This document shows, piece after piece, positions 7,259 to 23,877 of a stretch of 64,000 nucleotides of DNA. Both the position numbers and the translations under genes were made by a program. Below the pieces are notes generated by a model. It had not been told where the DNA came from. It saw only the letters and a list, made by a program, of their open reading frames with translations, and ran no database searches. The stretch comes from Polyangium fumosum (GTDB lineage: Bacteria; Myxococcota_A; Polyangia; Polyangiales; Polyangiaceae), in NCBI RefSeq assembly GCF_005144585.1, contig NZ_SSMQ01000018.1:118715-182714 (forward strand), in the 5' to 3' direction. How positions within the stretch are numbered: the first letter of the stretch is position 1; each line of letters begins with the position of its first letter.

Positions 7259-8488
7259 TCACCCCTTCACGCACACCACTTGCCGCAGCGTGCGCACGAC
7301 CTCGACGAGGTCGCGCTGCGCTTGCATCACATCGTCGATCGACTTGTACGCGCCGGGCGTCTCGTCGATCACGTCCTCGTCCTTGCGGCACTCGATCCCG
7401 GCCGTCATGCGCGCGTGGTCCTCGAGCGAGAACGCCCGCTTCGCCGCCGAGCGCGACATCTTCCGACCCGCGCCGTGGCTGCACGAGCAGAACGACTCCT
7501 GGTTCCCGAGCCCGCGCACGATAAAACTCTTCGCGCCCATGCTGCCGGGGATGATCCCGAGCTCGCCCTCGCCTGCGCGCACCGCGCCCTTGCGCGTCAC
7601 CCACACGTCCTTGCCGTAGTGGTGCTCCTTCGACACGTAGTTGTGGTGGCAGTTCACCGCCTCGTTCATCAGCTCGAACGGCGGCAGAAGCCCCGACGTT
7701 CGCACCGCCATGATCGTCGCCTCCATCATCAGCGCGCGGTTCGTCCGCGCGAACTCCTGCGCCCAGGCGAGCGCGCGCCAGTACGCGCCAAACGTCTCGC
7801 TCCCATCCGGGATGTAGGCGAGGTCCGCGTCCGGCAAGTTGATGAACCACCGCTTCATGTCCTTCTTCGCGAGGTCGATGAAGTGGCTCCCGATGCGGTT
7901 TCCCACGCCGCGCGAACCCGAGTGCAGCATGAACCACACGTGGTCGCGCTCATCGAGGCAGACCTCGATGAAATGGTTCCCCGTCCCGAGCGTCCCGAGG
8001 TGCCCGAACGACGTCCCGCGCCCGATCGACGGGTTCTCCTTCACGATCGCCTCGTAGCCCGGCGCGAGCTCTGCCCACGCCTTCTGCACGCGCTCGGGTG
8101 CCTCGCCCCACGCGCCGCGGTCGCCGGGCCCGCCGTTGTTCGTGCGACCGTGCGGCACGGCCGCCTCGATCACGCTGCGGATCCCCTTCAGATCGTCAGG
8201 CAACTGCGACGCCGTCAGCGACGTCTCGACGGCGATCATCCCGCAGCCGATGTCCACGCCCACCGCCGCGGGGATGATCGCGCCGCGCGTCGCGATCACG
8301 CTCCCGACCGTCGCTCCCTTCCCGGCGTGTACGTCGGGCATCACGGCGACCCACTTGTGGAGGAACGGCAGGCTCGCCAGGCGCCGCACCTGCGTCTCCG
8401 CCTCGCTCTCGAACGGCACGCCGCGCGTCCAGGCCTTGATGGGCACGCCGTCGGTCTCGAACGTCAGGTGGGTCGTCGTCTCCTTCAT
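7259..8488 (-). CDS. rtcB: RNA-splicing ligase RtcB
   Basis: GTP- and manganese-dependent ligase joining 2',3'-cyclic phosphate or 3'-phosphate RNA ends to 5'-hydroxyl ends. At 409 residues it is the size of the E. coli enzyme. Visible metal-site elements are MPDVHAGKGATVG (residues 50-62) and GVDIGCGM with Cys82. The guanylylated histidine is His338 in CSCSHGAGRKMSR. The ATG at 8488 is preceded by an AAAGG ribosome site about ten bases upstream. The gene is divergent from rtcR and carries a sigma-54 promoter 45-60 bases upstream, matching RtcR-controlled rtcBA operons in other bacteria. Confidence 0.97.
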   Translation of the reverse strand: MKETTTHLTFETDGVPIKAWTRGVPFESEAETQVRRLASLPFLHKWVAVMPDVHAGKGATVGSVIATRGAIIPAAVGVDIGCGMIAVETSLTASQLPDDLKGIRSVIEAAVPHGRTNNGGPGDRGAWGEAPERVQKAWAELAPGYEAIVKENPSIGRGTSFGHLGTLGTGNHFIEVCLDERDHVWFMLHSGSRGVGNRIGSHFIDLAKKDMKRWFINLPDADLAYIPDGSETFGAYWRALAWAQEFARTNRALMMEATIMAVRTSGLLPPFELMNEAVNCHHNYVSKEHHYGKDVWVTRKGAVRAGEGELGIIPGSMGAKSFIVRGLGNQESFCSCSHGAGRKMSRSAAKRAFSLEDHARMTAGIECRKDEDVIDETPGAYKSIDDVMQAQRDLVEVVRTLRQVVCVKG

Positions 8489-8531
8489 GGTCGCCTAGCC
8501 TTTCACGTCACGGGTGGACGCGGACCGGAAG

Positions 8532-8547
8532 AGCACGCCGCGTGCCT
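8532..8547 (-). promoter_or_regulatory. sigma-54 (RpoN) promoter of rtcBA
   Basis: On the minus strand this reads AGGCACGCGGCGTGCT, with the invariant GG (8546-8545) and GC (8534-8533) exactly ten bases apart, close to the consensus TGGCACG-N4-TTGCW. The expected start site is near 8521, leaving a leader of about 33 bases with a ribosome site before rtcB. The neighbouring activator RtcR acts only with sigma-54, which supports the call. Confidence 0.8.
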
Positions 8548-8587
8548 GGCTCCCGGGGCCCTTTTTCGCGTCCGCGCATAGACACCT

Positions 8588-8603
8588 GGATAAAGTCCGA
8601 TAC
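8588..8603. promoter_or_regulatory. candidate RtcR upstream activator site, rtcBA
   Basis: The plus strand reads GGATAAAGTCCGATAC. Its complement, GTATCGGACTTTATCC, shares the frame GTAT-N6-8-TATCC with sites ahead of the two other sigma-54 promoters in the window. It is centred about 75 bases upstream of the predicted rtcB start site. Function is inferred from position and similarity only. Confidence 0.45.
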
Positions 8604-8642
8604 AGGGGACGAAGAACGTGCTATTCTGTCGTCGACCTTACC

Positions 8643-22037: not shown

Positions 22038-22053
22038 GAGGTCCCACGGGGCG

Positions 22054-22070
22054 CTGGCACGCCCGCTGCA
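22054..22070 (+). promoter_or_regulatory. sigma-54 promoter of the Y-RNA-like RNA and TROVE gene
   Basis: CTGGCACGCCCGCTGCA has GG at 22056-22057 and GC at 22068-22069 exactly ten bases apart, and the -24 block TGGCACG is perfect. The predicted start is near 22081, about 30 bases before the hairpin RNA and 165 bases before the TROVE ATG. Confidence 0.8.
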
Positions 22071-22080
22071 ATGCCTCCTC

Positions 22081-22203
22081 GCCGAGCACCCTCCTCGCGA
22101 GGGCCGCTCCCCCGAGCCCCGGGCAGTGAAGGCAGCGGTTCCTTCGATTTCCACGAAAAAAACCGCGGCCGATGGTTCTCCCGGGCTCCTCGGGTGTTTT
22201 TTT
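22081..22203 (+). ncRNA. Y-RNA-like small RNA upstream of the TROVE gene
   Basis: The 5' and 3' parts form a long stem: CCCGAG (22111-22116) with CTCGGG (22189-22194), then CCCGGG (22118-22123) with CCCGGG (22180-22185). Next comes an internal loop with CAGTGA (22124-22129) opposite GATGGTTCT (22171-22179), an inner stem GGC-A-GCGG with CCGC-G-GCC, and a cap TTCG/CGAA with a seven-base loop. Seven T follow at 22197-22203, so the outer stem doubles as an intrinsic terminator. The fold and cap sequence match the RNA at 17023-17110. The 5' end is estimated from the sigma-54 promoter. A Y RNA gene next to its Ro/TROVE protein gene is the arrangement known from Deinococcus and other bacteria. Confidence 0.75.
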
Positions 22204-22245
22204 ATCCGCGCGGCGCGTGCTGCGCGGGGAATCGGTAGGTTCGTC

Positions 22246-23877
22246 ATGGCGTTTTTCAGCTTCATCAAGAAGGAGAAGGCTCGCGCGAAGGCGGCGGTTC
22301 AGACGCCCCCGGCCTCGGGACACCTGAATTTCATGGGCGGCGTCTCGTACGACCTCTCGTCGCCGGTCCTGCGCCTCCGCCTCGCGGCGTCGACGTGCTT
22401 CTTCGGCGAGCCCATGTATTATCACCGTGACGAGAAGGACGCGCGGCCCGTGAAGGCCGCGAGCCCGTGCGGGCTCTCGAACAAGGAGGTTGATTACCTC
22501 CGCGCGACGCTCGACGCGGTCGATCCGCAGGCGTGGCGCAAGATGTCGCCCGCGGAGCTCATCGAGAGCGCAATCGACGAGGCGCTCGACCACGACGCGG
22601 AGGCGACGCTGGAAGAGGCGGCGCGGCTGCGGAACGACGAGCACATCCGCACGACGCCGCAGGTCATCCTCGTGCGCGCGGCGAACCATCGCGCCGTGAA
22701 GGGGACGGGCCTCGTGCGCAAGTATGCGCCGCGAATCGTGAAGCGCGCGGACGAGCCGGCGGTGGGCCTGGCGTATCAGATGTTTCGTTATGGCAAGCCG
22801 ATCCCGAATGCGCTGAAGAAGGCGTGGCGTGACGCGATCACGCGCTTCGATACGTACGGGCTCGCGAAGTACCGGCTCGAGGATCACGCGGCGAAGACCG
22901 TGGACGTCGTGAACCTCGTGCACCCGAAGAGCGAGGCGGTGCACAAGCTCGTGAAGGGCGAGGCGAAGAACACGGGGCGCACGTGGGAGGCGATCGTGAG
23001 CGCGCGCGGGTCGAATCGGACGTCGTGGAAGAAGGCCATGGCGGTCATGGGCCACATGGCCACGCTGCGCAACCTCCGCAACATGCTGGAGGCGGGTCTC
23101 AAGGCGGAGGAGATCGTCCCGTCCTTGCTCGCGGGCGCGAAGGACGGCAAGCAATTGCCCTTCCGTTACTTCTCGGCCTACAAGGCCGTGGAGGAGAAGG
23201 CGTCGGGGGCGCTGCTCGACGCGATCGAGACGTGCCTCGTCACGTCGCTCGGCGAGCTGCCGTATTTCCGCGGGCGCGTGATGGTGCTCGCGGACAACAG
23301 CGGCTCGGCGCAGGGGACGGCGACGAGCGCGATGGGCACGATGAAGGTCTCGACGATCGGCAACCTGACGGGCGTGCTCGCGGGGATGCGCGCGGACGAG
23401 GGTCACCTCGGCGTGTTCGGGGACGAGCTGGAGACGTTCGCGATCCGAAAGGGCGCGTCGATCTTCGATCAATTGAAGCGCGCCGAGGCGCTCGCGAAGC
23501 ACATCGGTCAGTCGACGGAGAATGGAATCTGGCTCTTCTTCGACCGGGCGATCCGGATGAAGGAGCACTGGGACTCGATCTTCGTGATGAGCGACATGCA
23601 GGCGGGCCACGGCGGCCTGTACGGTACGAACAAGGCGCAGTATCGCGAGTACGGCTGGGGTTCGGGCGGGCAATACATCGACGTAGCGAAGCTCGTGTCG
23701 ACGTATCGCAAGCGCGTGAACCCGAACGTAAAGGTGTTCTTGGTGCAGATCGCCGGCTACAAGGACACGCTCGTGCCGGAGTTCTACGACCGTACGTACA
23801 TCCTCGGCGGCTGGGGCGAGGGCCTGCTCCGCTTCGCCGCGGAGATGGAGAAGGCTTCCTCCGGGAAGGCGGCATGA
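22246..23877 (+). CDS. rsr: TROVE-domain RNA-binding protein, Ro60/Rsr orthologue
   Basis: Ring-shaped RNA-binding protein that holds Y RNAs and misfolded or damaged RNAs. The ATG at 22246 gives 543 residues, close to the about 535 of Ro60 and Rsr. The HEAT-like TROVE domain spans about 40-335 (including FMGGVSYDL, LRLAASTCFFGEPMYY, MAVMGHMATLRNLRNML). The VWA-like domain follows from about 342 with the metal-binding D-N-S-G-S motif at 350-354 and VMSDMQAGHGG further on. It lies directly after a terminated Y-RNA-like gene, so expression probably depends on read-through of that terminator or on an unseen promoter in the 42-base gap. RtcR/RtcBA in the same window supports a role in RNA repair or quality control. 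Confidence 0.94.
   Translation: MAFFSFIKKEKARAKAAVQTPPASGHLNFMGGVSYDLSSPVLRLRLAASTCFFGEPMYYHRDEKDARPVKAASPCGLSNKEVDYLRATLDAVDPQAWRKMSPAELIESAIDEALDHDAEATLEEAARLRNDEHIRTTPQVILVRAANHRAVKGTGLVRKYAPRIVKRADEPAVGLAYQMFRYGKPIPNALKKAWRDAITRFDTYGLAKYRLEDHAAKTVDVVNLVHPKSEAVHKLVKGEAKNTGRTWEAIVSARGSNRTSWKKAMAVMGHMATLRNLRNMLEAGLKAEEIVPSLLAGAKDGKQLPFRYFSAYKAVEEKASGALLDAIETCLVTSLGELPYFRGRVMVLADNSGSAQGTATSAMGTMKVSTIGNLTGVLAGMRADEGHLGVFGDELETFAIRKGASIFDQLKRAEALAKHIGQSTENGIWLFFDRAIRMKEHWDSIFVMSDMQAGHGGLYGTNKAQYREYGWGSGGQYIDVAKLVSTYRKRVNPNVKVFLVQIAGYKDTLVPEFYDRTYILGGWGEGLLRFAAEMEKASSGKAA

Follow-up and report, generated by a model that had tools for sequence, protein, structure and literature searches.

A 64,000-nucleotide stretch of the genome of the soil myxobacterium Polyangium fumosum (referred to here as the window) carries the RNA repair genes rtcB and rtcA, a cluster of noncoding RNAs, and a Y RNA gene placed before the gene for a Ro60 (TROVE) protein at three separate loci, each with a sigma-54–type (–24/–12) promoter, which raises the questions of whether a single activator, RtcR, controls all three and of what kind of RNAs they encode. 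As described in PMC7790460 and PMC9879122, Salmonella has an rsr-yrlBA-rtcBA operon under the control of RtcR. The Salmonella and Polyangium systems have in common Ro60 (Rsr), Y RNAs including a tRNA-like one, rtcBA, a divergent rtcR, and sigma-54 control, and the players and their link to RtcR are thus already known, whereas in the window three promoters with a repeated upstream element are spread over ~15 kb. Given that this rare element is common to the three promoters, we consider it likely that the three loci constitute a single RtcR regulon. The Y RNAs of this regulon are predicted partners of Ro60, and two of them consist of a tRNA body that carries a putative Ro60-binding hairpin in place of the anticodon arm (tRNA-Y RNAs). 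This arrangement points to continued co-regulation of RNA repair and Ro60/Y RNA functions despite dispersal of their genes.

Pfam analysis bore out the identities that an earlier note on this DNA had assigned to rtcA, rtcB, rtcR, and the TROVE gene (Table 1). The rtcR gene adjoins rtcBA in divergent orientation and yields the single match to the RtcR regulatory domain (PF06956) in the whole genome of 12.98 Mb. The same note had presented rtcR as the only sigma-54 activator gene in the window; this holds, with a single Sigma54_activat match there, but the genome contains 69 such matches, so that the presence of rtcR alone in the window proves little. PF05731 was found in the window Ro60 as well as in all nine aligned family members, a profile of which matched Deinococcus radiodurans Rsr (2nvo, E 4.6e-13) and vertebrate Ro60 chains, and the sequence DNSGS at positions 350–354, a possible metal site of a vWA domain, is invariant across the nine. 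The Pfam family vWA_Ro60 was matched in just three of the nine and not in the window protein. Close Polyangium relatives possess Ro60 proteins 95–96% identical to that of the window, and in the window genome itself a single gene for a Ro60 close to that of the window was found, in addition to a divergent second gene at another locus (L204). Ro60 of the window type is uncommon in the order, with a TROVE match to the window query being obtained in 22 of 183 genomes. An RtcR match was present in 69 of the 183 and in all 14 genomes of the three genera that have a close Ro60.

Table 1 Features of the window discussed in the text, with positions counted from its first nucleotide
Feature	Position	Strand	Basis or remark
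rtcA, RNA 3'-terminal phosphate cyclase	6226..7254	-	Pfam PF01137, E 7.7e-76, and PF05189
rtcB, RNA ligase	7259..8488	-	Pfam PF01139, E 3.5e-127
Sigma-54 site of rtcBA, AGGCACGCGGCGTGCT	8532..8547	-	GG-N10-GC, consensus match with 2 mismatches
Candidate RtcR site (upstream activating sequence) of rtcBA, TTTATCCAGGTGTCTA	8579..8594	-	Element match; kept in five relatives
rtcR, sigma-54 activator	8643..10271	+	Pfam; RtcR regulatory domain and sigma-54 AAA+ domain
Candidate RtcR site of RNA cluster, TTTATCCGATGAGATA	16715..16730	+	Perfect TATC-N6-GATA
Sigma-54 site of RNA cluster, TTGGCACGGCGCCTGCT	16817..16833	+	GG-N10-GC, tight consensus match
tRNA-Y RNA 1	16854..16980	+	Rfam tRNA, 48.5 bits, model 1-71; covariation
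Plain Y RNA 1	17023..17100	+	GCAGTGA strand first, TTCTCC second; short T-run after; between the two tRNA-Y RNAs
tRNA-Y RNA 2	17144..17269	+	Rfam tRNA, 47.3 bits, full-length model 1-71
Inverted repeat, possible transcript end of cluster	17296..17322	+	Sequence
Candidate RtcR site of Y-Ro60 unit, TTTATACAAACATCTA	21953..21968	+	Element match
Sigma-54 site of Y-Ro60 unit, CTGGCACGCCCGCTGCA	22054..22070	+	GG-N10-GC, tight consensus match
Plain Y RNA 2	22114..22194	+	Terminal hairpin, then TGTTTTTTT
Ro60/TROVE protein, 543 aa	22246..23877	+	PF05731, E 8.6e-14

The three promoters are located where the earlier note had placed them, and each conforms to GG-N10-GC. Its description of them as textbook promoters applies to the RNA-cluster and Y-Ro60 sites but fails for the rtcBA site because the latter is a two-mismatch match only. 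With up to two mismatches allowed, the note's consensus occurs nine times in the window compared with 7.07 expected, with 30 of 100 shuffles reaching nine; the rtcBA match taken alone is not significant, and the consensus was dropped as sole evidence. A scan of the 12.98-Mb genome with the tight pattern YTGGCACGN4YTGCW returned nine matches, not hundreds, two of which are the cluster and Y-Ro60 sites, and 20 matches were obtained with the backwards pattern. Comparison of the same loci in relatives revealed that the promoters at rtcBA, the cluster, and Ro60 are kept in six of six Polyangium genomes: GG-N10-GC at rtcBA in the window, L038–L041, and L217, and the tight cluster and Y-Ro60 sites, with a variable N4 spacer, in five other genomes of the genus (L038–L042 and G152, the last with the RNA cluster and Ro60 unit on different contigs). 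The more-than-chance status of the promoter set rests on the upstream element and its conservation. Another –24/–12 site of the genome (L006:1501-1517) has GCTGCAATGCCTCCTCG in common with the Y-Ro60 promoter; it lacks the upstream element, and the gene downstream resembles, by eye, one for an exported protein.

Inspection by eye revealed TTTATMC-N4-RNMTA in all three upstream regions. The pattern YTTATMCN4RNMTA has five matches in the genome (one for the backwards pattern), three of which are located at the rtcBA, RNA-cluster, and Y-Ro60 promoters, with the other two lying inside long open reading frames without a –24/–12 match within 200 bp. Given that the pattern was derived from the sites themselves, the evidence lies in its rarity and not in the fit. 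The element is present at rtcBA in six of six Polyangium genomes, and likewise at the cluster and Ro60 promoters, and it precedes the tRNA-Y/Y/Ro60 units of five of five genomes of a Sorangium-type genus (g47). In the latter genus a –24/–12 site is followed by tRNA-Y, Y, and Ro60 as a single unit, with no rtcBA nearby in stretches of 20 kb; Polyangium has two units besides rtcBA. Four Sorangium records (L097 and L099–L101) each contain two element sites 20 bp apart, with TCTA and then GATA in three and GCTA and then TATA in L099. A joint pattern consisting of the element, 62–92 bp, and GGCAY-N6-TGC, written after the sites had been seen, matched twice in the window genome, at the RNA-cluster and Y-Ro60 promoters; the rtcBA site, with an element-promoter spacing of ~31 bp, falls outside it. 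Across 11 genomes (six of Polyangium and five of g47), 21 joint matches were found (four for the backwards pattern), 18 of them at tRNA-Y/Y/Ro60 promoters, one beside rtcR (G166), and two elsewhere, and a decoy with a spacer one base longer gave three matches, one beside rtcR.

An independent source of the motif was provided by the regions upstream of rtcR in E. coli and at 30 loci outside the window's genus, the best-scoring of the 69 genomes with an RtcR match, with 30 of these 31 regions being long enough. The best TATC-N6-GATA upstream of rtcR matched at 8/8 positions in eight of the 30 regions and at 7/8 in ten, compared with 0.15% and 4.4%, respectively, of shuffled regions. In addition, 21 of the 31 regions hold a –24/–12 match directed away from rtcR, with the downstream gene being assumed to be rtcBA. 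E. coli K-12 (L058) shares with the window the divergent rtcBA-rtcR arrangement, TGGCACGACGGTTGCA, and, upstream of rtcR, TATAAAAGACGATA, a 7/8 match to TATC-N6-GATA, whereas no Ro60 gene is annotated within its 8-kb stretch. A resemblance to GATA-N6-TATC in E. coli was also noticed by eye. An upstream activating sequence for rtcBA is mentioned in PMC9650030, the relevant text of which does not give its letters. The common control that the earlier note had proposed thus has support, solely computational: each of the three promoters is preceded by a candidate RtcR site, and a related motif is present ahead of rtcR in 18 of the 30 other-genus regions and in front of the five Sorangium-type units.

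Several observations weigh against a single regulon. Only the cluster site fits TATC-N6-GATA perfectly, whereas the rtcBA site matches it at 6/8 and the Y-Ro60 site at 5/8 positions, and these two have a different second half, TCTA, in common; the three-way link therefore leans on post hoc patterns. Among 11 records of tRNA-Y RNAs of the window's type (type 1) outside the genus, five (L102–L106, from Nannocystis, Paraliomyxa, and three g50) have a –24/–12 match but no TATC-N6-[GCT][ACT]TA within 250 bp, and 12 of the 30 rtcR regions lack a 7/8 site. A second class of tRNA-Y RNAs (type 2, see below) is mostly without such a promoter, in the window genome and L207 too. Given that a terminator-like hairpin of Y RNA 2 precedes the Ro60 gene, read-through into Ro60 is assumed. 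The 69 activator matches in the genome, the imperfect rtcBA and Ro60 sites, and the five element-less records would also fit a scheme in which the three loci are sigma-54 dependent but under different activators, with the element being the site of another regulator. We judge this scheme unlikely, given the presence of the element ahead of rtcR itself in the 18 other-genus regions and before the Sorangium-type Ro60 units, and given that three of its five genome-wide matches fall at the three loci. We infer instead that the three transcripts depend on RtcR.

The two tRNA-Y RNAs of the cluster were matched by the Rfam tRNA model with 66–67 nt standing where the anticodon loop region should be, and ARAGORN called neither. 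In both, the order of the acceptor, D, and T arms is that of a tRNA, with the 7-bp acceptor stem, D arm, T arm, and GG/TTC elbow letters intact. Between the D and T arms they contain, in order, an A-rich strand, helix 1, TTCTCC, helix 2, GCAGTGA, helix 1', a GGTTAC-type strand, and a 3-bp mini-hairpin. In an alignment of 19 such RNAs (11 from Polyangium, five from the Sorangium-type genus, and three from genus g50), 99.5% of cells were paired at 34 hand-drawn pairs, compared with 37–45% when the pairing partner was slid, and 12 pairs were changed on both sides. Four of five covariation measures were unmatched in 500 shuffles, with the fifth (further pair types) being matched in 32, and RNAalifold unaided recovered 32 pairs, including 13 with double changes. 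In the Polyangium rows a GNRA tetraloop caps helix 2; in the remaining rows helix 2 forms a 7-bp hairpin with other base pairs. The lack of an ARAGORN call would suit tRNA genes that have decayed or been invaded and are functionless, a notion rendered highly implausible by compensatory changes in the acceptor, Ro, and mini-hairpin stems over three genera, by the position of the RNAs upstream of Ro60 in all 14 records L094–L107, and by the promoter conserved before them. As judged from their letters, the tRNA-Y RNAs are Y RNAs with a Ro-type hairpin at the position of the anticodon arm and the tRNA ends outside. The earlier note had listed tRNA-mimic and Y-like RNAs as separate kinds; tRNA-like and Y-like forms are both present, but the mimics are themselves Y RNAs.

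Downstream of the Ro hairpin, 9 of 29 linear and 13 of 53 canonical RNAs (topologies defined below) have a hairpin resembling an anticodon arm (at least 4/5 pairs, T33, and A37A38), a feature present in 0.3–0.5% of shuffles, and many bacterial Y RNAs may thus retain the fourth tRNA arm. In the window, RNA 2 forms four of five pairs with the loop CTGTCAA, and RNA 1 just three of five. Together with the membership of RtcB in the tRNA-splicing ligase family, this hairpin would be compatible with intron-bearing tRNA genes, the Y hairpin being an intron and the halves being joined by RtcB to yield a tRNA and a free Y hairpin. Such splicing is improbable here, given that RNA 1 lacks the anticodon-like hairpin, that canonical Y RNAs have the same hairpin yet cannot yield a tRNA by simple splicing, and that all 19 aligned RNAs retain C27-G108 and G28-C107, two pairs in competition with the outer pairs of this hairpin. 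The placement of the promoters bears on the ends of these Y RNAs. A –24/–12 match precedes the tRNA-Y 5' end by 29–36 nt (eight records) or 52–55 nt (three) in all 11 type-1 records outside the genus; among type-2 loci scanned alike over 250 nt, it was found in just two of ten. In the window, transcription starting 24 nt after GG would leave a leader of ~10–11 nt before the tRNA 5' end. This proximity argues that the tRNA end is, as predicted, the real RNA end.

The two plain Y RNAs of the window have the two strands of tRNA-Y in reverse order, with helix 2 at the ends, and possess the canonical order, the Ro stem at the ends and a hairpin at the tip. Unlike tRNA-Y, the plain Y RNA is without tRNA-like arms; we presume it to be of the YrlB type. 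A terminator-like site (22180-22194) lies at the end of Y RNA 2, whereas the terminator scan did not list the inverted repeat after the cluster. The hairpin and T-run at 22180-22203 stand between the promoter and Ro60, T-runs are placed likewise across the genus, and a self-limiting read-through is possible.

With regard to known structures, the 5' and 3' ends of YrlA form a large stem accompanied by a tRNA-like domain (PMC8394870), and its structure superposes on tRNA via circular permutation (PMC11472068). YrlA and tRNA-Y have in common the Ro-type stem and the acceptor, D, and T arms. The ends of YrlA pair in the Ro stem, with the T arm ahead of the D arm and the acceptor closed by a short loop, whereas tRNA-Y begins and ends as a tRNA does and has a closed Ro hairpin (with a GNRA loop in Polyangium). 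We defined a topology as linear if the acceptor 3' half pairs with the 5' half of its own copy and as canonical if it pairs with a 5' half 3–30 nt downstream, ahead of the D arm. Both window RNAs pair 7/7 within their own copy without a canonical partner within 30 nt, and they do not show the canonical YrlA topology. Among 101 sources, ten of which are the same genomes under a second name, the script, which overlooks RNAs whose T loop is unusual (L049, L105), called 26 linear, 21 canonical, and none both, with 54 receiving no call. Linear RNAs were found in Polyangium, Sorangium, Nannocystis, Paraliomyxa, uncultured relatives, the unplaced L107, and a Clostridia metagenome-assembled genome (L134). 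Canonical ones were found in Bacillota, Bacteroidota, one Actinomycetota, the unplaced L125, and L054 and L055, two members of the same order (family f3) with a distant Ro60 amid tRNA genes.

In the clade of close Ro60 proteins, tRNA-Y has the linear form in 14 of 14 records (L094–L107). A model (R1) built from the 19 type-1 RNAs scored above 60 bits, over 87 sources, solely in L094–L107, the next being L134 with 55.3. Weak long R1 matches in Clostridium and other phyla were rejected as linear tRNA-Y, the classable ones being canonical loci by acceptor pairing. No R1 match was obtained in L108 or L109, whose Ro60 is 54% identical; L108 shows plain Y-like RNAs by eye. Among 79 phage-contig loci, the best of 368 and including some near-copies, 42 calls were made, 36 canonical and six linear (L229, L234, L235, L270, L275, and L288), with L229 containing one RNA of each topology. 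In a Ro60 tree of 65 rows, which carried a long-branch warning (foremost for L172) and in which L229 was entered as linear, the topology label changed six times (four to six in bootstraps, at least four being forced by well-supported branches), compared with 18.0 for shuffled labels. The window and L094–L107 formed one linear group of 15 rows next to phage proteins, with support of 90/86, below the program's mark. The Ro60 proteins of phage contigs L224–L252 are 40–61% identical to that of the window, closer than most bacterial Ro60 proteins, which suggests Ro60 exchange between phages and myxobacteria. In L053, L054, L055, and L118, Ro60 genes lie in or beside arrays of 4–17 ordinary tRNA genes, and L118 additionally holds a ROOL RNA; the Rfam scans covered the sources other than L046, L056, and L057.

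R1 was also run on 377 genomes of the phylum with strict filters. Weak matches were mostly of 72–74 nt, the length of ordinary tRNAs, and matches of 158–175 nt in G300 and G331 were discarded as pairs of ordinary tRNAs; long matches in G347, G382, and G386 and those of 104–105 nt in G296 and G407 were left unclassed. Among the matches listed, those of 121–144 nt and 59–79 bits outside type-1 loci amounted to 13 loci (type 2), one in the window genome, and all 13 have a Ro60 gene 29–1714 bp away. The Ro60 of L207 comprises vWA_Ro60 and TROVE by Pfam, and the other 12 matched it by tblastn with 47–57% identity (over part of the length in L208, which is cut by a contig end, and in L215). The 14 RNAs of the 13 loci fold with their own acceptor halves paired. 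The topology script called ten RNAs in eight loci linear and one in L214 canonical, with four loci receiving no call; the L214 call probably reflects cross-pairing of neighboring copies with similar acceptors, given that the fold of this RNA has its own acceptor closed. In L207 the gene order is rtcB, divergent rtcR, Ro60, and tRNA-Y, and no –24/–12 match was found within 250 nt of this tRNA-Y beside rtcR. In the window genome, a type-2 tRNA-Y (L204:6065-6187; G000:C140:73064-73186) is located beside the second, classical Ro60, between tRNA-like genes; its letters GTCCG...CGGGCCG...GGTTATC appear similar to the consensus of vertebrate Y RNAs. Two Ro60 genes of the window genome are thus accompanied by linear tRNA-Y RNAs, and only one of the two has the RtcR-type promoter.

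The RNA-repair, Ro60, and Y RNA genes are likely switched on together upon RNA damage, as far as sequence can indicate. By analogy with Salmonella, for which this has been reported, tRNA fragments would activate RtcR, which, at TATC-N6-KMTA sites about 30–90 bp upstream, would open the three promoters. The cluster transcript would begin ~10 nt before the tRNA 5' end, so that both ends of the RNA would resemble those of a tRNA and might be processed accordingly. Ro60 may clamp the hairpin at the GCAGTGA/TTCTCC internal loop, and the tRNA body may recruit a tRNA-recognizing partner, putatively PNPase, as in published Y RNA complexes. With both in place, a broken RNA would be either re-ligated by RtcBA or degraded; this role of the Ro60 complex is modeled on the Rsr–Y RNA–PNPase machine of D. 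radiodurans. More tentatively, and with the balance slightly against it, bacterial and phage Y RNAs might be tRNAs equipped with a Ro60 clamp, their backbone having undergone several rounds of circular permutation, probably via tandem copies. The myxobacterial damage regulon would then use the tRNA-ordered form, whose authentic tRNA ends would be accessible to RNase P, CCA addition, and tRNA nucleases, as a bait or decoy coupling the sensing of tRNA damage by RtcR, repair by RtcBA, and decay by Ro60.

In our literature search, with the likeliest YrlA papers outside its reach, we encountered no account of linear tRNA-Y RNAs or of TATC-N6-GATA as an RtcR site, and the novelty of both is provisional. 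The element supplies a candidate RtcR DNA site that can be tested, and natural circular permutants of one ribonucleoprotein RNA offer a test of which ends and contacts are needed by Ro60, RNase P, and PNPase. Scans for tRNAs and Rfam families overlook such RNAs (ARAGORN) or label them as tRNAs (Rfam).

Elsewhere in the window, positions 13734-14011 on the minus strand matched the Rfam family 5' ureB small RNA with 100.8 bits, as was also the case in the relatives L038, L039, and L041. This match probably lies inside urease genes and may be a simple reflection of conserved coding sequence.

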